DNA from: a virus
DNA: 20,542 nucleotides
IMG/VR virus record: IMGVR_UViG_3300032287_004411
Span: 1 to 20,542 of that record
Direction: 5' to 3' (one strand)
Position 1 is the stretch's first letter. The number at the start of each line of letters is the position of its first letter. Below the pieces are notes generated by a model, which saw only the letters and a list, made by a program, of their open reading frames with translations, searched no databases and was not told the DNA's origin. Below, one piece after another: positions 2,184-12,409 of this stretch. Position numbers and translations under genes: made by a program.

Positions 2184-2255
2184 TCAGCGATTTGCGATAT
2201 ACATGGTAATTTCAAAGCCAAAACGCATATCTGTTGCTGCTGGTGTTGTCCACAT
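2184..2255 (-). CDS. pqqA: PqqA, pyrroloquinoline quinone precursor peptide
   Basis: A 23-residue peptide: [12 protein letters not shown], then G13-F14-E15-I16-T17-M18-Y19-I20-A21-N22-R23. This has the full pattern of gammaproteobacterial and betaproteobacterial PqqA: the MWT-P start, the GFE-T-Y core and the NR end. PqqA is the ribosomal substrate of PQQ biosynthesis. PqqE (with PqqD) cross-links the conserved Glu and Tyr, which sit exactly at positions 15 and 19 here, and the cross-linked pair becomes the cofactor. GGAG lies 6 nt before the ATG. No pqqB, C, D or E is present in the window, so the peptide would feed a host pathway. It follows the outer-membrane barrel gene and precedes an exact late promoter. 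A TATAGATA motif 40 nt upstream may serve as its own promoter. The alternative, a chance short frame, is very unlikely given the match across the whole peptide. Confidence 0.93.
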
Positions 2256-2294
2256 AGTATTCTCCAAGGTTATACAAGCAAATCGCCTGTCATA

Positions 2295-3150: not shown

Positions 3151-3173
3151 CATGATCTCCTAGTTAGTAAAAT

Positions 3174-3204
3174 GGTAGGTTATTCTGTTACGAGGAAACC
3201 TACC
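3174..3204 (-). terminator. hairpin at the 3' end of the tmRNA gene
   Basis: The minus strand has GGTAGGTT (3204-3197) and AACCTACC (3181-3174), a perfect 8-bp stem with a 15-nt loop, followed by ATTTTA. It could be the 3'-terminal helix of the coding piece, a weak terminator, or both. The T-run is short, so termination is uncertain. Confidence 0.45.
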
Positions 3205-3221
3205 GAAACCCTAGGCAGTGT

Positions 3222-3254
3222 TTAGGCTGCCAATGCGAACTGTTCGTCGTTTGC
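3222..3254 (-). other. tmRNA proteolysis tag frame, ANDEQFALAA plus stop
   Basis: The tag reading frame encodes A-N-D-E-Q-F-A-L-A-A followed by TAA. The first four codons, GCA AAC GAC GAA, equal those of the Escherichia coli tag, and the LAA end is the classic ClpXP/ClpAP degron. The frame is not a free-standing CDS: translation resumes on its first alanine codon after trans-translation. Confidence 0.9.
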
Positions 3255-3390
3255 GTTTACGTGTTTGCTTGATTTACGGTCATCGCCTACCGTGTTGCCG
3301 TCGCCACTATCTAACCCCGTCGAAACCATGTCAGGCCCATCAAAAGAAAACTTGAATCCTTTCACGGTAGCGTCCATTGCTGGTTGTGCT

Positions 3391-3404
3391 GTAGATGCAT
3401 CTAC
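3391..3404. repeat. perfect palindrome in the tmRNA intervening segment
   Basis: GTAGATGCATCTAC is its own reverse complement. It lies in the segment that must be removed between the CCA end of the acceptor piece and the 5' end of the coding piece. As RNA it would form a short hairpin, and a processing signal is a plausible role. Confidence 0.5.
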
Positions 3405-3486
3405 TCAAATTTTCTTATGGTGGACCTGGCGGGAGTCGAACCCGCGTCCGAGATTCCTTCGTCTTGAAGGGATTACAACAATTCAG

Positions 3487-3885
3487 TTATTTAGCCATGT
3501 CTGCCAGTTCACGATAGCCATTGTATGTTGGATGTATGCGATCTGTCGATAGCATTCTCTCCGATATCAGTATAATTGTATCATCATATTCTCGGGCTAT
3601 TTCTCTGACAATGGCCTGCTTCATGGGCTTGATTGGAGGAATAATCCAGTATACTCGGGTACCTTTGACAATCTTTTCCCGCAGTTTAATCAACTCAGCT
3701 TCGGTGTTAAGGCCGGCAAAGTCATTGGTGCCCAGACTAATAATGGTGGTGCGGGCCGGCATGATGGCGAATCTGCGATTCCAATCCTGACTATTGATGC
3801 CACTCTTTACCTGGGCCACACATTCGTGTCGTATATTGCTGACACCATAGGCTATGCTGTCGCCAACAATTAAACAATCAATCAT
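3487..3885 (-). CDS. SGNH/GDSL hydrolase-like protein
   Basis: A 132-residue protein with the SGNH blocks in order: block I IVGDSIAYG with nucleophile S10; block III GTND with N54; and block V DRIHP with the D115/H118 pair. SGNH hydrolases remove acyl groups from lipids, polysaccharides or peptidoglycan. At 132 residues it is shorter than most members, so it is a minimal domain; the block II oxyanion glycine is not obvious. The start at 3885 is inferred because the catalytic fold begins there (MIDCLIVGDS) and it overlaps the upstream oxygenase stop (AATGATTGA). The longer in-frame start at 3960 would lie well inside that gene. With a nearby glycan cassette, deacylation of a surface glycan is a reasonable guess. 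Confidence 0.75.
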   Translation of the reverse strand: MIDCLIVGDSIAYGVSNIRHECVAQVKSGINSQDWNRRFAIMPARTTIISLGTNDFAGLNTEAELIKLREKIVKGTRVYWIIPPIKPMKQAIVREIAREYDDTIILISERMLSTDRIHPTYNGYRELADMAK

Positions 3886-4530: not shown

Positions 4531-5262
4531 TGACTGGTTCTCCATTTCGTACTGTTCACGTACTTTTAACAGAGGCTTGGTCCAGACATCTCTATGTTGT
4601 TTAAATACCTGCACCGTGCAGTCTTCTTCTACCGCCACCAGAACCACCAGCTGAGTAATGGGGATGAAGGTTATTTCTTCATACATGATGGCATAGGCTG
4701 CGCACTGCATGAAGTAACTGTGAATCCATTCTTCCTGTTTGGGCTTGGTTGACGTCTTGAAGTCAATGACACTCAATTTACCATCATACTCACCAATGCA
4801 GTCCACTGTACCGGCCATGCGCAGATGATGGCTAAACATACGAGTCTCCTGACAATGTATGTTGTTGATTCGATTTAACTCAGGTCGAATGCTGCCAAAC
4901 ATTTCCTGCACCAGGGGGCTGTAGTTGCCGATCTTGCCCCGTGCCGGCACTGCCGTGGGGGAGTTGTTTAGATAGGCTTCGATGCGATTGTGTACACCGG
5001 TACCACGACCAGCAGCCACTCGAGCAATCGTGTTGGCGTTTTCAGCACCAACACGTTTACGCCAATTGGCTATGGCTTCACGCCCCAGGATGCTGAGCAC
5101 AGTTGTGACACTGGGATACTTCTCTCCCGTGGGTGTGTTGTAGAAACGCACACCGTTGGGAGCAGTATACTGTTCAATTACTGGTAATCGTTTTTTCCCT
5201 AAACCAAAACCTACGTGATTAAATATAGGGGATAATGTATTGTCGCCAGGGTTTAATGTCAT
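4510..5262 (-). CDS. RecB/Cas4-like PD-(D/E)XK exonuclease
   Basis: A 250-residue nuclease. The core motifs are GTGVHNRIEAYL (H91, E95), a mid-protein acidic residue near HCQETRMF (E139), GTVDCIGEYDGKLSVIDFKTSTK with D154 and the D167-x-K169 pair, and QCAAYAIMYEE with the Q/Y motif. This is the RecB-family arrangement used by phage exonucleases in recombination or host DNA degradation. The N-terminal block with TGEKYPSVTTVL and W-K-R-V-G is also typical of T4-like phage members. The start at 5262 overlaps the upstream methyltransferase by 44 nt and has no good Shine-Dalgarno, so the exact start is uncertain; the longer in-frame start at 5361 would overlap even further. Confidence 0.8.
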   Translation of the reverse strand: MTLNPGDNTLSPIFNHVGFGLGKKRLPVIEQYTAPNGVRFYNTPTGEKYPSVTTVLSILGREAIANWRKRVGAENANTIARVAAGRGTGVHNRIEAYLNNSPTAVPARGKIGNYSPLVQEMFGSIRPELNRINNIHCQETRMFSHHLRMAGTVDCIGEYDGKLSVIDFKTSTKPKQEEWIHSYFMQCAAYAIMYEEITFIPITQLVVLVAVEEDCTVQVFKQHRDVWTKPLLKVREQYEMENQSLTEATT

Positions 5263-5896
5263 CGCCGTCTGCTTTAAATAATTCAATAAATGAAGGATCA
5301 ACCAATTCAGGATGAACCCACCAGTCTTCAAAATTCTGATTGTCCAGATTGGGAGATGCACTGATGTTGGACACTACCAGTTCATATCCCTGTGCACGTA
5401 AATACTCACGACTGGCATCTCGGATCTCTGGTCCATGAGCATAGCAGTCATGTTCAAAGGTAATGATGCCAAATCGCAGTCCCTGACCAATGACTCGTTG
5501 CAGAGCAGCAAAGGTTACTGTGGGTGGTTCACAATCACAGCTCAGATAATCGATGTCTGTGGATTCAATGCCTGCGTCCCTCAACATCTTGACATAGTCG
5601 GCCTGCAGGGCATCGCCCAGCACTGCTTTACTGATTCTATTGGCATTATAGTCGGCAACAAACTCTCTGTCAATATCAATACCTGTACCTCGCCAACCAA
5701 AATTGCGTTCCAAGATACAGGTATTGTTCAGGTCCTCACCAAAGCAGCTACCAATCTCAAGATAAGTGCCTTCGCGCATACCATTAAACATACTCAATAC
5801 GAAAATATCCTGCCCCGCCTGACTCCAGTTGTGTTCAATGGTTTCACAGTCTGGAAAACGATATCTAAGTTGTGCTGCTTGGTGTTTTGTGTACAT
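5219..5896 (-). CDS. FkbM-like SAM methyltransferase
   Basis: A 225-residue protein. SQAGQDIFVLSMF then GTYLEIGSCFGED (about 43-55) is the SAM-binding motif I of the FkbM-like class, with GIDIDREFV as the acidic motif II and DIDYLSCDCEPP as the motif IV region. The C-terminal half ends in NFEDWWVHPELV. FkbM-type enzymes O-methylate sugars or small molecules; the target is unknown. It starts 1 nt after the GH19 stop and overlaps the exonuclease start. A perfect consensus sigma70 promoter is embedded at 5645-5673. It sits apart from the main glycan cassette, separated from it by the lysin gene. Confidence 0.72.
   Translation of the reverse strand: MYTKHQAAQLRYRFPDCETIEHNWSQAGQDIFVLSMFNGMREGTYLEIGSCFGEDLNNTCILERNFGWRGTGIDIDREFVADYNANRISKAVLGDALQADYVKMLRDAGIESTDIDYLSCDCEPPTVTFAALQRVIGQGLRFGIITFEHDCYAHGPEIRDASREYLRAQGYELVVSNISASPNLDNQNFEDWWVHPELVDPSFIELFKADGDDIKPWRQYIIPYI
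5645..5673 (-). promoter_or_regulatory. perfect sigma70 consensus inside the methyltransferase gene
   Basis: TTGACA (5673-5668), exactly 17 nt, then TATAAT (5650-5645), with all 12 consensus bases matched. It lies inside the coding sequence for residues IDREFVADYN, about 380 nt upstream of the exonuclease start. If active it would serve the exonuclease and downstream genes, or make an internal transcript. Confidence 0.55.
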
Positions 5897-5897
5897 A

Positions 5898-6527
5898 TTA
5901 AGAACTCAATACCTGAATGTTATGATTAAAGTGATCGGTGCGTTCCTTCAAACCCAGTGTACCACCATTGATTTTCTTGGTCAATGTGGTCATGTCCTGT
6001 TTGTCGGCCCACTGGTTTAAGTTGTTTTTCCACCAGAACCAGGCCGCACTTTCAACAGCACCCTCCAGAGACTCCAGATAAAGTATGGCGTCTTCCATGG
6101 TATCAAACCCCAGATCAGTCTGGAAAGCTGCATAGTTGTCATGACCGGTAAGCTGGATGGCACCGCGGCCGCGATATTTCCAACCATCGCCACTGGCCTC
6201 AGGACCATTGCCCATGCGATCCGAATATACCTTGTTGGCTATGGCTTCGGGATTGCGGTTATAGGGCGCAGCCGCTGCTTCTGATGGAAAGCGTTTAGGC
6301 CAGGTTGATGCCAGACCCTTGGCTGAGTAGTTTAAATTTTCCTGCAGCACAGTAAAGTCTGCACTCTCATGACCACATTGTGCCAAAAAAGCTGCCACGC
6401 GTTCCGGAGTAGTAATCTCATAGCGTGGTAATACGGCTTCTAGAGCTGCTGCCAATGCTGCGGGATTTTTGTGACGTGGGCTGCACTCACGCACCTTGTC
6501 TGCGGTTAGTTCGAAGTCGAAAGACAT
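5898..6527 (-). CDS. GH19 chitinase-like endolysin
   Basis: A 209-residue single-domain glycoside hydrolase family 19 protein. RVAAFLAQCGHESADFTVLQENLNYSAKGL holds the two catalytic glutamates (E54 in HES, E63 in QEN). WPKRF, RNPEAIANKVYSDRMGNG, GDGWKYRGRGAIQLTGHDNY and the late AAWFWW segment are all standard for phage GH19 lysins. In phages this fold usually cleaves peptidoglycan rather than chitin. There is no signal peptide, so it needs a holin or is part of the virion. AAGGAT lies 7 nt before the ATG. It sits between the glycan cassette and an FkbM-like methyltransferase, away from the SleB/holin pair, so it may be the main endolysin or a structural lysin. Confidence 0.88.
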   Translation of the reverse strand: MSFDFELTADKVRECSPRHKNPAALAAALEAVLPRYEITTPERVAAFLAQCGHESADFTVLQENLNYSAKGLASTWPKRFPSEAAAAPYNRNPEAIANKVYSDRMGNGPEASGDGWKYRGRGAIQLTGHDNYAAFQTDLGFDTMEDAILYLESLEGAVESAAWFWWKNNLNQWADKQDMTTLTKKINGGTLGLKERTDHFNHNIQVLSS

Positions 6528-6539
6528 TGTTGTTATCCT

Positions 6540-7328
6540 TTACAAATAAAGTTTGTTATAATGTTCAATCAGGTTTGGATGACGATCCCATTGATGTATA
6601 ACGGCTGGAGTCTTACCATAGACGCTTACGCGACCATCGGCAAGAACCTTGATTTGGTTGGGATGGGTCAGACAAATTGTGGCAACGCCATCGGCATTTT
6701 CCTGCTTGGTGTGCGGTAATTTATCTTTGTGGAACAGGTAGTTGTGCGGAGCCTGCTCGTCGGGAATACCACCCACCTGCATCATCTTTTCCAGACTACG
6801 CTCATTCATTAGAGCAACAATGTAGTCCTGAATAGCCTGTGCTGTTCCCAGAGTGGTGCCCGAACAGATGATGCGCTTGTCTTTGAATTCAGCGGCAACT
6901 GCTGCACCATAGTTATTGGTTAGAATAGATTTATTGAATCGTTCATCGCAGGTCCAGTCTGGATCTTCCATGAAGCAGTGCAGTTCACCGTCGGCAAGCT
7001 CGTCAAAAATATTGCCCTGCAGAGCCACATCACGTATGTCGGTCAAAAAGACACGGTTAAAGTGACCCCGATGTTCCATGAGTATGTCGAGATATTTAAA
7101 ATAACGTGTGTTGTGAATTGCTGAAGGTATAAAATACCCGGCTGTAAAGAATCTAAGATCAACACCGCTGTCAATCAGGTAGTTAAATTTTTCTTCGGAT
7201 ACATCGGGCTCAACCAGTAAAATAAGTCTGACATCAGAACAATACTTCTTCCAGCTCTCGACAAAAACTTTGATCTGGTCTGCTTTATACCCCCAGGCAG
7301 TACCAAGTATTACATTTTCTTTTTCCAT
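6540..7328 (-). CDS. putative glycosyltransferase with TDxRD motif
   Basis: A 262-residue protein: VILGTAWGY at the N-terminus, then VRLILLVEPD, and NRVFLTDIRDVALQGNIFD (about 91-109), where the T-D-x-R-D motif takes the place of DxD in a GT-A-like fold. Later segments (CSGTTLGTAQAIQDYI, GGIPDEQAPHNYL, and the histidine-containing end AVIHQWDRHPNL) match the general pattern of phage and capsule-cluster glycosyltransferases of this type. Donor and acceptor are unknown. GAGGAAATT precedes the ATG. It is the last gene of the glycan cassette before the GH19 lysin. Confidence 0.65.
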   Translation of the reverse strand: MEKENVILGTAWGYKADQIKVFVESWKKYCSDVRLILLVEPDVSEEKFNYLIDSGVDLRFFTAGYFIPSAIHNTRYFKYLDILMEHRGHFNRVFLTDIRDVALQGNIFDELADGELHCFMEDPDWTCDERFNKSILTNNYGAAVAAEFKDKRIICSGTTLGTAQAIQDYIVALMNERSLEKMMQVGGIPDEQAPHNYLFHKDKLPHTKQENADGVATICLTHPNQIKVLADGRVSVYGKTPAVIHQWDRHPNLIEHYNKLYL

Positions 7329-7335
7329 AATTTCC

Positions 7336-8076
7336 TCAATCGTAAATCATTAAACTGTTGGGACCAATTGCGCCATAAAGATGTGTATTCTTCAACTCAA
7401 CGGTCTTGTCGGGTCCAATGTGTTTGTATAGCAGATGCTCAAGGTCTATATACTTGCCTTCATCGGCAATGGCATGAACATCTTCTAGCATGTCCGTGTA
7501 TTTATCCCTGGTCGTCTCCAGCAGAGTTGGACACACACTCCACAATCGACTGGAATAGAAATATGGAATGCCACCCTCGGTATTCCAGGTAGGATCACGC
7601 TGACGGAACACCCAATGATCATGATGATAGTGTTCGGCTGGATCAAACAATGGGCTTAGCTGATAGCGTCCACTGATCTTGAATATACGATCGGTGTTGC
7701 GGGCAATCTCCAACTCTGGATGAGATATCAGCCCATTCAACACCGATTGAGTCAGAGTCAGCTCGGCAATGGTCTTGGCCACACCATTGGTACCACCCAT
7801 TTCAGTACGGTTGGGATTGCCATTCATGATCTCATGCAGATATAGAATCTGTTCATCCTTGGTCATGTCAATGAAAGCATTGCTGCGCTGCTTCAAGGCC
7901 TGGAAGGCTGGCGAGTCATCCACATGAGTTCCACCTTCAACAATGATGGTAATGGCATCAGGAAAGAATTTACGAATGGAGTCAATGGTAGACAGTGTCT
8001 GCATTACTCGAATTTCTGCAGGGAAAATTCCTGCACCAGTATGAATTGCGCTGGTAATTATAAAGGTAGTTTTCAT
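7336..8076 (-). CDS. unknown protein of the glycan cassette
   Basis: A 246-residue protein opening with an alternating hydrophobic segment (TTFIITSAIHTGAG) and continuing with TIDSIRKFFPDAITIIVEGGTH, a Rossmann-like beginning that resembles capsule-cluster transferases. Mid-protein features include MGGTNGVAKTIAELTL and an aromatic/His-rich HYHHDHWVFRQRD stretch. I do not recognise a firm family. It overlaps the upstream gene by 4 nt (ATGA), so it is translationally coupled and presumably acts on the same glycan. A GT-A-like transferase is the leading guess, but no clear DxD is evident. Confidence 0.65.
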   Translation of the reverse strand: MKTTFIITSAIHTGAGIFPAEIRVMQTLSTIDSIRKFFPDAITIIVEGGTHVDDSPAFQALKQRSNAFIDMTKDEQILYLHEIMNGNPNRTEMGGTNGVAKTIAELTLTQSVLNGLISHPELEIARNTDRIFKISGRYQLSPLFDPAEHYHHDHWVFRQRDPTWNTEGGIPYFYSSRLWSVCPTLLETTRDKYTDMLEDVHAIADEGKYIDLEHLLYKHIGPDKTVELKNTHLYGAIGPNSLMIYD

Positions 8077-8987
8077 ACGTAGATGTGTTGGATTCCTGTT
8101 GTATAACCTGGATCAGCTGAACGAATATGACGATGCAGCTGACTGCATACCAGATCCACCTGTGATTGATCACTGAACTTAAATCGAGCCGGGAACTCTA
8201 ATCCAGCTGTCAGACAATCTGTCAGTGTACGATTAAAAGAATAGAAGGTAACATTGTCACGATTCAGATTCTCTTTGTACTGGCAATAGCTAAATGGACC
8301 GCTGTTCTTACCAACAATCAATTTAGCACCTTTGCTCAGATAGGCAATCTGATTCAAATCGCTGCCTATGCCATGAATGTCTCCGGTATAGAACATATTC
8401 TTGGCTCTTAGACCAAAGTCATAGGTACAGACAAAGGTTTGTTCTGGAAAATCCAGCAGTAGTTTTTTTACAATGGGTTTAAAGTCGCCAACCGCACTCT
8501 GTCCGCTCAGGGCACTGCCATTGCAGATTAGATTAAATTTGTCATGGCTATCAATAAATTCCTGTGATTTAGAAACATCGTATTTGCTAAAATCAATCTC
8601 CGGCAAATAATCATGAGGATTGGTGGACTGCGTAATGGCATGACCTAAAATGCCCGACAATTTTTCACAGTACAGTTCATACATTCTGTGCTGGATTACA
8701 TAGTTGCTGTGATAGCCATGACCAAATAATTCGCCTTGAAAGGCACCACACCAGGTATTGATAAAGATGTCGCCGTCGTCGTTCTGTGCAATGCGAACCA
8801 TTTTATCAATTTCTGGAATGTCGCTGAGATGTACATACTCGGCAGGCAGGTCCTGAACAATGCTGGGGTCATTGCGATGTGCATAATAAAAGGTGGCTTC
8901 GGGAATCTGATCGATGATATTTTTCACCCATCCTTTGCCTACAAAGCAATCACCATTGTGGAATTGATTGAAGAATACTATGTTCAT
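8073..8987 (-). CDS. GT-B-like glycosyltransferase, heptosyltransferase-like
   Basis: A 304-residue protein. The N-terminal half starts MNIVFFNQFHNGDCFVGKG and includes DIFINTWCGAF. The second half has NLICNGSALSGQSAVGDFKPIVKKLLLDFPEQTFVCTYD, then GSDLNQIAYLSKGAKLIVGKNSGPFSYC, which resembles the donor-binding part of GT9/GT-B enzymes (D-L-x-x-x-A-Y-L-S, then an N-SGP-x-S signature). It likely adds a sugar to a surface glycan. Both ends are in ATGA overlaps with neighbours, giving tight coupling. The fold assignment is moderately sure; a pseudaminic-acid or heptose pathway protein is possible. Confidence 0.65.
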   Translation of the reverse strand: MNIVFFNQFHNGDCFVGKGWVKNIIDQIPEATFYYAHRNDPSIVQDLPAEYVHLSDIPEIDKMVRIAQNDDGDIFINTWCGAFQGELFGHGYHSNYVIQHRMYELYCEKLSGILGHAITQSTNPHDYLPEIDFSKYDVSKSQEFIDSHDKFNLICNGSALSGQSAVGDFKPIVKKLLLDFPEQTFVCTYDFGLRAKNMFYTGDIHGIGSDLNQIAYLSKGAKLIVGKNSGPFSYCQYKENLNRDNVTFYSFNRTLTDCLTAGLEFPARFKFSDQSQVDLVCSQLHRHIRSADPGYTTGIQHIYV

Positions 8988-9784
8988 GCTGGTCCTATTA
9001 AATAATTACTTTCAACGCTGGAAATAACTTTATAGCCTATGCTTTCTGTAAATACAAAATATGCGTCCAGAATCTGATCTGGGTAAATTTTGGTAAAATA
9101 ACTATCAAATTCAAAGATGATGTAGGGCTTGCATCGTTTAATTGTTTCAATGGCTCCCATCATACCATGTAGATCCGAACCTTGAATATCAAATTTCATT
9201 ACATCGACACGCTCAAGATTCAAATCATCAATCGTCATTGACTGAACTTTAATGGGTACCAGTTCAGGATCAATGCCCAGATTATTGTCTACAACGACCA
9301 CACCCCAGCTGGCCGCTGTTGTTGGCAGTGGCTGATGTTTGCCCGGCGGCAGCAGCAGCGTTTCTCCACTGCAGTGCCAAACCGCATCGGCATGAGAAAC
9401 AATGTTTGTAAATCCATTCTCTGCAAATGTTCTGTTCATGCATTCGTAGATCAATGGATTGACTTCAAATGCGTGTACGGTTCCATCGTATGCCATTTCA
9501 GCAAATGCCATGGCCATCTGTCCATAGTTACTGCCGACATCTAAAACCACGGAGTCTGGTTTGATGTAGTCTCTTAGTAGTTTCACTACATGATTGTCAA
9601 ACATGTTTCCACCCATGATTTGTCGAATGACATGGTCGTCTTCAACCATGTCAGATTCAAACCAAAATTTCTTGCCAGTGGGTATTTCAAACAGGGAACA
9701 GGTTGTACCCAGCACTTTAGTTGATGTCATTAATTTTCCTTGCATAGGGGGAAGATGGTATACAACCTGATCCCATACTGGCAT
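8984..9784 (-). CDS. FkbM family methyltransferase
   Basis: A 266-residue protein. VVLDVGSNYGQMAMAFAEM (about 79-97) is the SAM motif I, VHAFEVNPLIYECMNRTF the motif II region with its acidic residue, and VDVMKFDIQGSDLHGMMGA the FkbM-typical DI(E/Q)G segment. Members methylate hydroxyl groups of sugars in capsular or O-antigen-like glycans. It starts in a TAATG overlap with the gene upstream and ends in an ATGA overlap with the gene downstream. An internal ATG at about residue 19 is another possible start, but FkbM proteins commonly carry such an N-terminal extension. Confidence 0.82.
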   Translation of the reverse strand: MPVWDQVVYHLPPMQGKLMTSTKVLGTTCSLFEIPTGKKFWFESDMVEDDHVIRQIMGGNMFDNHVVKLLRDYIKPDSVVLDVGSNYGQMAMAFAEMAYDGTVHAFEVNPLIYECMNRTFAENGFTNIVSHADAVWHCSGETLLLPPGKHQPLPTTAASWGVVVVDNNLGIDPELVPIKVQSMTIDDLNLERVDVMKFDIQGSDLHGMMGAIETIKRCKPYIIFEFDSYFTKIYPDQILDAYFVFTESIGYKVISSVESNYLIGPA

Positions 9785-10989
9785 TAACCAAGTACCTTGA
9801 AAGATGGGCAGGGAACTATCATCTTACCACCCCGAGCAAAGAACTCGCTCTCGCGACTTTCAAACTCGTCGATAAAATGCCAGGGCAGCACCAGCAGATA
9901 GTCTGGTTTGGCGGCGCGCATTTCTTCTTCACTGACAATGGGGATGTTGGTACCAACAGTCTTTAGTCCAAACTTATAGGGTGAGCGTTCCGCAATGGCA
10001 ACAATGTCTTCATTGGTCAGACCAAAGTATTGCAGCAGAGTATTGCCCTTGGTGCTGGCGCCATAACCATAGATTGTTTTTCCTTCAGCTCTGGCCTGGC
10101 GAACGAAATTAACAACATCATTTTTAAGCTTGTTGAGACGGGCATTAAATTCTGACCAAGTGTTGGCGCTATCAATTGGTCGTTTGCTTTCATATTCATA
10201 GACCTGACCTACGCGCATGCGACAGACATCGCGCAGGGGAGCTGAACCAAAACTTGATTCCGCAGCAATCACCTTCTGCAGACTAATACGGAAACTACCA
10301 CCATTGGTATCGTTCAGGGAACAATCCACAATTTTAAATCCATGCTGGCTAAACAACTTGTTGATGCTGGTCAGGTCATAGTAGTAGACGTGCTCATGAC
10401 AGATATTGTCAAAGGCCAGTTGATTAATCATCAGTGGGGTATAACTCATCTGCAGTACCAGCAATCCATTGTCGTCCAGTACTTCATACAGGTCCTGAAC
10501 AAATGGATGTGGATCAGCCAGGTCATAGAACATGGCGATGCAGGTAATTACCTTGGGTTTTTTCTTGGTCATTTCCCAGTAGGCCTCTGATGTGAAGTAT
10601 GTCTGGTTGACTGTAGCGAACTTTTTAGACTCGGCATAGTAACTGTCATCGCAGGGATCAATACCAAACTTTTGAATGTTGTGAGGGATCGCCTTCAACA
10701 GCGTGCCATCATTGCAGGCAATATCCAGCCAGGCATCACCGTCTTTTAGTTTAACCCGGCTGGTAATTTCAGCGACAATGCCCTGCAATTCCTTGGTCAT
10801 GCTGGCATTAATTCCTGAACGATACCAATACTGTCCCCACATAGAGGAATGTGGTGGTTGTTCTTTGAGACGCGGAGCACCCAGAGCAGGATCAACGTAT
10901 AGATCTAAACTATACTTTTTGCGGTCCAGGTTGTCTTCTTTAATAAAATCACTGACATAATGATTTCCCAATTCGAGTACTTTTTTCAT
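9784..10989 (-). CDS. SAM-dependent sugar C-methyltransferase, N-terminally short
   Basis: A 401-residue protein of the TylC3/NovU-type sugar C-methyltransferase architecture. AWLDIACNDGTLLKAI (about 86-101) binds SAM, and ICHEHVYYYDLTSINKLFSQHGF is the central signature with the active-site His residues. The C-terminal domain (EGKTIYGYGASTKGNTLLQYFGL onward) closes the fold. These enzymes methylate carbon 3 of keto-deoxy sugars, which fits the 4-keto-6-deoxy sugar made by the dehydratase two genes upstream. The usual N-terminal zinc-binding CxxC segment is missing: the protein begins at the equivalent of VLELGNHYVSDF, and an in-frame TAA lies 9 nt before the ATG, so no longer start exists. 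AAGGAAATAGT precedes the ATG, which overlaps the previous stop (ATGA). Confidence 0.82.
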   Translation of the reverse strand: MKKVLELGNHYVSDFIKEDNLDRKKYSLDLYVDPALGAPRLKEQPPHSSMWGQYWYRSGINASMTKELQGIVAEITSRVKLKDGDAWLDIACNDGTLLKAIPHNIQKFGIDPCDDSYYAESKKFATVNQTYFTSEAYWEMTKKKPKVITCIAMFYDLADPHPFVQDLYEVLDDNGLLVLQMSYTPLMINQLAFDNICHEHVYYYDLTSINKLFSQHGFKIVDCSLNDTNGGSFRISLQKVIAAESSFGSAPLRDVCRMRVGQVYEYESKRPIDSANTWSEFNARLNKLKNDVVNFVRQARAEGKTIYGYGASTKGNTLLQYFGLTNEDIVAIAERSPYKFGLKTVGTNIPIVSEEEMRAAKPDYLLVLPWHFIDEFESRESEFFARGGKMIVPCPSFKVLG

Positions 10990-11375
10990 ACTATTTCCTT
11001 ATAAGATTTTTCTTCAATAATTGCTGAGCCATACGATCTATTTATCCGCAGTTTGTGCTTGGCACGTTTGTCATTGTTGTCGTGTATGCTAAATGCAGTA
11101 TCAATAAATTCCTGATCGGTTCTGGGATTGCGCATCAGCTCACGAATTTTATCTTCCAGATCCCAACCAGCCTTGTTGATCTCATACATGATACGATACA
11201 AGTCATCAAACTCGGCATTGCCAATCAGATTCTTTTCCATGATCTCATTGAGAATACGAAGTTCGTTGCTCACATTGACTAATTTGGCTGGGTCGTTCAG
11301 CGAGTTTTGTTTGATCAGCAGTATGGTTATTTTATCCAACAATTCTGCTACACTGATGGGGATGTAAAGAATCAT
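10986..11375 (-). CDS. DUF6165-like small protein
   Basis: A 129-residue helical, charged protein. [19 protein letters not shown] at the N-terminus followed by [13 protein letters not shown] is the recognisable pattern of the DUF6165 family, found in surface-glycan gene clusters of bacteria. I recall no established biochemical role. It is coupled on both sides by ATGA overlaps, between the GDP-mannose dehydratase and the C-methyltransferase, and so belongs to the same pathway. Family assignment is from memory and moderately sure. Confidence 0.68.
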
Positions 11376-12409
11376 GCCAGTTGCTCCGCTTCAAATTCAG
11401 CAAGTTTAAGGTCACTGTCAATCATATCCTTGACCAGAGATTCAAAGGTATGATTGGGTTGCCATCCAAGTTCGGTACGAGCCTTGGTACTGTCTCCCAG
11501 CAGCAGATCTACTTCGGCTGGACGATAGAAAGCAGGATTGATCTTGACAATAATTCTACCAGTATATAGGTCTGTTCCTACTTCGTCAATACCTTCACCG
11601 GTCCATACTATCTTCATGTCCAGATGGGCAGCAGCAATTTCAATGAAATCACGCACACTATGAGTCTCATTCATGCTAATGACATAGTCATCGGGACTGC
11701 CCTGCTGCAGCATCAACCACATGGCTTCGATATAATCCTTGGCGTGACCCCAGTCACGTTTGGAATCTAGATTGCCTAATTCAAGCACACCCTTGCCAGT
11801 GGTCTTGATGGTGGTCAGCGCTCGGGTAATTTTGCGAGTAACAAACCCTTCGCCACGACGTGGACTCTCATGATTGAATAAAATACCTGCGCACGCATAG
11901 ATGTTGTAGCTCTCACGATAGTTGGTGGTAATCCAGTGTGCAAATAATTTGCTGCAACCATAGGGGGAGCGGGGATAGAATGGTGTGCGTTCAGTCTGAG
12001 GTGTCTCCTGCACCTTGCCAAAGAGCTCGCTGGTGCTGGCCTGGTAGTATCGGATCTTCTTGGTTAGTCCCAGATCTCGTATGGTGTCCAGGATGCGCAG
12101 AGCACCCAGAGCGTCAACGTCTGCAGTATATTCCGGCAATTCAAAACTCACCATGACATGACTCTGTGCTGCCAGATTGTAGATCTCATCGGGTTGAATC
12201 TTGCCAATGATATTTCTCAGATTGGTGGAGTCAGTCAAGTCTCCATAGTGCAGAGTAACTTTATTTTTGGTATTGCGGAGATTGGGGTGGTCGACAAAAC
12301 TGCTATTTCGTCTGATCAGGCCATGTACCTCATAGCCTTTTTCAAGCAGCAGTTCGGCGAGATAACTTCCATCCTGGCCGCTGATGCCAGTAATTAATGC
12401 TTTTTTCAT
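11372..12409 (-). CDS. gmd: GDP-mannose 4,6-dehydratase
   Basis: A 345-residue short-chain dehydrogenase converting GDP-D-mannose to GDP-4-keto-6-deoxy-D-mannose, the precursor of GDP-fucose, rhamnose, perosamine and related sugars. [19 protein letters not shown] (8-26) binds NADP; STSELFG (125-131) and Y150-x3-K154 in SPYGCSK are the catalytic residues. [22 protein letters not shown] and [19 protein letters not shown] are Gmd hallmarks. The length equals that of bacterial Gmd. GAAGGAATACA precedes the ATG. It heads the glycan cassette and lies just after the phoH terminator. No reductase or epimerase for the next step is seen here, so the keto sugar may go directly to the C-methyltransferase or to host enzymes. 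Confidence 0.95.

Follow-up and report, generated by a model that had tools for sequence, protein, structure and literature searches.

A fragment of a T4-like phage carries a complete gene for PqqA, which is quite likely a working auxiliary metabolic gene that supplies the precursor peptide only, for PqqBCDE of the host, under host-type control. The fragment is an IMG/VR virus record of 20,542 bases, and the whole of this stretch is called the window below. The gene recurs among viruses, is under selection there, and lies behind an upstream element that is specific to pqqA, while a higher PQQ output is what we infer from these features. What is new in this account is the control by an element of host type; as to the gene itself, the account adds to an earlier report.

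Identification of the phage pqqA gene

The pqqA gene is located on the minus strand at positions 2184–2255 and consists of 23 codons plus the stop codon, with the ATG at 2255–2253 and the stop at 2186–2184. The peptide matched the Pfam family PqqA (PF08042) with about 38–40 bits (40.3 in one search; E = 5.9e-11 in the record search) compared to the curated cut-off of 21.1, and the alignment covered model positions 1–19 of 19. It also matched the NCBIfam equivalog TIGR02107 with 41.2 bits compared to the cut-off of 20, over model positions 1–21 of 21. The cross-link residues Glu15 and Tyr19, which are three residues apart and become PQQ, were both present. A Shine-Dalgarno sequence (GGAG; 2262–2265, minus strand) was read 7–10 bases 5' of the ATG, and an SD-like motif was found in 177 of 180 distinct viral pqqA upstream regions. 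The initial annotation, which described a complete 23-codon PqqA with a ribosome-binding site, Glu15 and Tyr19, was thus borne out, the gene being on the minus strand.

The surroundings of the gene were also read on the minus strand. A possible −10 region (TATAGATATATG; 2291–2302) was recognized in the sequence, its assignment being uncertain. A small hairpin in the leader (ACAGGC-GATTT-GCTTGT; 2274–2290) can be folded both in the window and, with different stem sequences, in relatives; its z-scores are weak. Directly 3' of pqqA and 5' of the neighbour gene, an exact match to the T4 late promoter sequence TATAAATA was found at 2174–2181.

Phage context and gene order

According to profile searches, the window also codes for PhoH, an ATP-dependent DNA ligase, UvdE, an exonuclease of phrog_298 and a cell wall hydrolase. 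A search for pqqBCDE in the window found none, and pqqA was the sole pqq gene in its 20,542 bases. The claim that pqqA sits amid phage genes with no pqqBCDE in view therefore held, since phage hallmark genes were present and no further pqq gene was.

Two genes downstream of pqqA belong to a conserved arrangement on the minus strand. The small neighbour gene (MSNMTPFEIRLELLKMAKD...; 1833–2108) keeps a fixed position relative to pqqA in the relatives, and the aligned proteins were 62–89% identical to that of the window. The cell wall hydrolase (endolysin-like; 1244–1774) was assigned by PF07486, phrog_938 and synteny. In eight relatives (L021, L061, L073, L009, L060, L034, L089 and L120), pqqA was on the same strand as in the window, the middle of the small neighbour protein lay 250–320 bases downstream of pqqA, and the cell wall hydrolase came farther on. 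The possibility that the contig is a chimera with host DNA had been named as a refutation; a chimera is unlikely because L021, L061 and L073 keep the window's gene order around pqqA. Among 80 loci picked by the neighbour gene, seven had pqqA within the fetched stretch. Within this phage group, pqqA is therefore accessory, and it is presumably kept where the host produces PQQ.

Two other features of the window were observed. A permuted tmRNA of betaproteobacterial type with the tag ANDEQFALAA is encoded at 3153–3526 (minus strand), and several pqqA-bearing relatives have a tmRNA with other tags. A gene run of surface-sugar type was found at 5219–12409 (minus strand), including FkbM methyltransferases, a GDP-mannose 4,6-dehydratase (above the curated cut-off) and other putative transferases.

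Distribution of pqqA among viruses

Two pattern scans of IMG/VR yielded at least about 220 viral pqqA genes. The first pattern (GFExTMYxA) gave at least 120 loci; all of them were PqqA except L024, which was rejected as a false pattern match, and a few were cut by contig ends. The second pattern was the N-terminal half of PqqA with residues 14–23 left free. Both patterns together gave at least 218 peptide hits, including one or more chance matches. The search that had been proposed against the PqqA families and viral metagenomes thus returned a full-length PqqA that recurs in related and unrelated phages. By shared genes, the pqqA-bearing loci clustered into 13 groups of at least three loci, plus pairs and singletons, under a stricter rule than single-linkage, which had lumped unrelated phages. 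Hallmark genes of both T4-like and podovirus type occurred among these clusters.

In GenBank, 12 phage records matched pqqA, comprising nine isolated Methylophilales phages (P19250A, Venkman, MEP301, MEP401, MEP402 and four Melnitz strains), one environmental podovirus and two 'Acinetobacter phage' contigs. The longer of the latter, 'Acinetobacter phage MD-2021a' (CAKLQF020000010.1), was set aside as host DNA with a full pqqABCDE. This contig (L350) also has polyphosphate kinase and fur at the place of pqqABCDE and looks like host DNA. The GenBank phage records left the pqqA site either unannotated or under a hypothetical protein, which was on the opposite strand in the regions read, and none of the nine Methylophilales records annotated it as PqqA. 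At 23 codons the gene is missed by gene finders, as the initial annotation had expected.

Two side features were observed in other pqqA-bearing viral contigs. A radical-SAM protein is encoded about 1.7 kb from the phage pqqA in L091 (5519–6643), and two tandem glutamine riboswitches are located in L038 (3696–3808).

Selection on viral pqqA and absence of other PQQ genes

Viral pqqA is under purifying selection. Among the copies found by the second pattern, in which both residues were free to vary, Glu15 and Tyr19 were kept in all 101 complete copies, and two further copies ended at contig ends. Over residues 14–23 (ten codons), pS was 0.79 compared to a pN of 0.08, with synonymous sites near saturation. 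Conservation in related phages, the lack of which would have spoken against the gene, was thus found in its kept place, its invariant cross-link residues and its low pN, yet the gene is accessory. The pqqA of the window accordingly has what is expected of an auxiliary metabolic gene, namely a conserved place amid phage genes and purifying selection in phages.

In 46 pqqA-bearing viral records longer than 30 kb, no PqqE was found above the cut-off, the radical-SAM matches being weak and below it. The same 46 records contained no PQQ alcohol or methanol dehydrogenase (quinoprotein dehydrogenase). Neither the window nor these long records held a complete pqqABCDE operon.

A palindromic element upstream of pqqA

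The initial annotation was right about the gene and its phage context and overlooked a control element upstream of pqqA. This palindromic 'PQQ box' (CAATGATTTTCTGTA; consensus TMATGAWWWTCATKA) is located at 2314–2328 on the minus strand, with a PWM score of 15.9 compared to 10.2 for the next best site in the window. The box of the window has a C as its first base, and its distance to the possible −10 region is shorter than usual.

The motif TAATGATTTTCatTA was found de novo by EM in about 82% of 160 non-redundant viral pqqA upstream regions, with a log-likelihood of 643 compared to 40 for shuffled sequences, and it outranked the Shine-Dalgarno motif. Scores above 16 were reached in 71 of the 160 viral leaders and at two sites in 1.27 Mb of surrounding DNA. 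At a threshold of 1% false positives, the box was present in 110 of the 160 (about 70%), including the window.

As the motif was trained on the viral pqqA leaders, the host genomes served as the independent test. There, 52 sites of TMATGAWWWTCATKA were found in 19 genomes, whereas the reversed pattern gave a single one; a hand count placed 43 of these 52 sites upstream of a pqqA copy. Among the sites not before pqqA, one precedes a PQQ-dependent dehydrogenase of the methanol/ethanol family, one is at pqqB, and three precede TonB receptors. In other Burkholderiales, a box with at most two mismatches was found in 35 of 119 pqqA upstream regions, compared to none in shuffles.

In the viral set, the −10-like hexamer, where present, peaks 21–25 bases after the box; the spacing in the window is shorter and not clear. 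This peak would put the centre of the box near −43, where a class II activator would bind. As the phage gene keeps a host-type palindromic element upstream, it probably answers to the same predicted host regulator as the host's pqqA.

A structured leader RNA at other pqqA genes

A second element, absent from the window, was found in some viral pqqA leaders and in streamlined methylotroph hosts. It is a structured RNA of about 55 bases with the layout P1, CUCAA, P2, a variable P3, P2', GAnCUG and P1'. Significant hits, one copy each and adjoining pqqA, were obtained at 26 viral loci (L011, L015, L019, L038, L039, L053, L063, L068, L079, L086, L104, L133, L135, L136, L149, L151, L157, L174, L184, L201, L222, L447, L448, L450, L452 and L477) and in 14 of 120 methylotroph-family genomes (L520–L533), all of 1.2–1.4 Mb. 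In the window's own pqqA leader, the model R2 gave chance-level scores only (at most 7.7 bits with filters off).

In alignment A3, which was fitted to the RNA model, 94% of pair cells were paired, and 80 double-change cells were counted compared to 21 in shuffles. The covariation of A2, which was aligned by MAFFT without structure, agreed with this (28 compared to 9 in shuffles), and RNAalifold recovered P1 and P2 from A2 by itself. Rfam 15 had no significant family on this RNA. Full-text searches of open-access papers found no riboswitch at pqqA besides a c-di-GMP one in Methylophaga. In the hosts, the 3' strand of P1 can alternatively pair, across 8–11 bases, with the sequence immediately 5' of the ribosome site. 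This pairing, which resembles an expression platform, is convincing only in the hosts and in some of the phages. The leader RNA is a strong candidate for a new class of riboswitches. The T4 late sequence was located just upstream of it in at least seven viral leaders. Among the 160 viral leaders with the box in 110, the RNA occurred in 16, and six of these had both elements.

Hosts and pqqA copy number

All 120 Methylophilaceae genomes searched contained pqqA, with a median of 4 and up to 12 copies; this set was reached via genomes with hexulose-phosphate synthase, so the family assignment is presumptive. It has been reported that Methylophilaceae carry 3–12 copies of pqqA and a single set of the remaining pqq genes (PMC4109929). 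Because this family multiplies pqqA beside one set of the other genes, the dosage of the PqqA peptide is a plausible bottleneck.

The viral peptide types follow those of the possible hosts. Peptides of Methylophilaceae mostly end in YV[MC]N[KR], as do those of most isolated Methylophilales phages. The peptide of the window matches the type of Burkholderiales outside Methylophilaceae, and for this reason its host is probably a betaproteobacterium outside that family. On the same grounds, methanol, which the initial annotation had named, is not an obvious substrate in this case. Naming the host via the tmRNA gave a weak best match of 80% over about 120 bases, and the genomes matched gave no pqqA match.

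Proposed role of phage pqqA

During infection, the 23-residue phage PqqA would be made, its Glu15 and Tyr19 would be joined by PqqD/PqqE of the host, and PqqB/PqqC of the host would then finish PQQ. As one PqqA is consumed per PQQ, more of the peptide could by itself increase PQQ, or keep it up, for the quinoprotein dehydrogenases of the host. A host regulator may bind the PQQ box of the phage gene. More broadly, and with slightly less than an even chance in our estimate, a control system dedicated to the PQQ precursor is common to phages and their betaproteobacterial hosts. It would consist of a pqqA-specific operator, the form present in the window, and, in other phages and in the streamlined methylotroph hosts, of a new riboswitch-like leader RNA occurring only at pqqA, maybe sensing PQQ, its pathway or a lanthanide.

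Other roles of the gene were considered. The locus could act mainly as a decoy, in which the box on many phage genome copies would titrate the host regulator or a surplus of PqqA would occupy PqqD/PqqE, and the box upstream of most viral pqqA genes would fit this. However, a titration site needs no intact gene, whereas purifying selection on the peptide is strong and has preserved both cross-link residues, and the conserved features are those of a substrate rather than an inhibitor, so we regard a decoy as improbable. A raised PQQ level might instead block superinfection or alter outer-membrane PQQ receptors rather than feed dehydrogenases, given that the receptor PqqU of E. coli closes on binding PQQ, so that a phage dependent on it is blocked (PMC12124388), and that a few host box sites precede TonB receptors. 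Nothing indicates the use of a PQQ receptor by the pqqA-bearing phages, however, and their many unrelated groups are unlikely to share one; this role appears marginally less probable still. Least credible of all is a functionless passenger recently taken from a host. Its accessory distribution and the tracking of host peptide types would suit such a gene, but the synonymous sites are near saturation while the protein is conserved, a refuting result. Furthermore, phages with neighbour proteins of no more than 62–73% identity have it in the same place, and the ribosome site and box are retained.

A further alternative concerns the control element only. The box might be an ordinary Fur site, with phage and host pqqA answering to iron instead of a PQQ-specific regulator; its core TAATGATAATCATTA resembles the centre of the Fur box, and the three TonB receptor sites agree with this. 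Nevertheless, Fur-type sequences were mostly elsewhere in the same host genomes, the two sets of sites being largely separate when one pattern was used for each. Among the matches listed, two overlapped box sites, one of these at pqqA. The centre of the box is mostly AAA/TTT, and its outer position is often C/G, which likewise speaks against Fur. We regard a Fur site as unlikely, though less so than the alternative roles of the gene.

Supply of the consumed precursor under the host's own signal remains the preferred reading, and it would be an unusually economical way for a virus to steer metabolism. Quinoprotein dehydrogenases of abundant aquatic bacteria, those for methanol among them, depend on PQQ, and the shared box offers a handle on the pqqA regulator in betaproteobacteria.

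Comparison with known systems

Phage pqqA has already been reported, once with its context. In 2020, Lake Baikal phage VP_266, a proposed Methylophilaceae phage, was described with pqqA and methanol dehydrogenase, and a PQQ boost was proposed (PMC7678222). Both that phage and the window carry pqqA, whereas the window has no dehydrogenase and another host type, and its control element is described here. A list of viral genes from reservoir sediments also includes pqqA (PMC13188868), and the Melnitz paper mentions PQQ solely as a medium component (PMC9004378).

Each of P19250A, Venkman, Melnitz, MEP301, MEP401 and MEP402 has an unannotated pqqA with a peptide of Methylophilaceae type, unlike that of the window. 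In Melnitz, P19250A, Venkman and MEP301, the best box hit of the locus is just upstream of pqqA, as in the window. Melnitz is T4-like, whereas the other Methylophilales phages with pqqA are much smaller (35–44 kb). The multiple pqqA copies of Methylophilaceae (PMC4109929) are likewise a precursor gene multiplied without pqqBCDE, with the box before many of them, but they are chromosomal, not viral. Bacterial PqqA (TIGR02107, PF08042) has the same full length, Glu15, Tyr19 and G-F-E-x-T-M-Y core as the phage peptide. The nearest host form seen is the peptide of several Burkholderiales. The phage gene differs in standing alone amid phage genes, without pqqBCDE.
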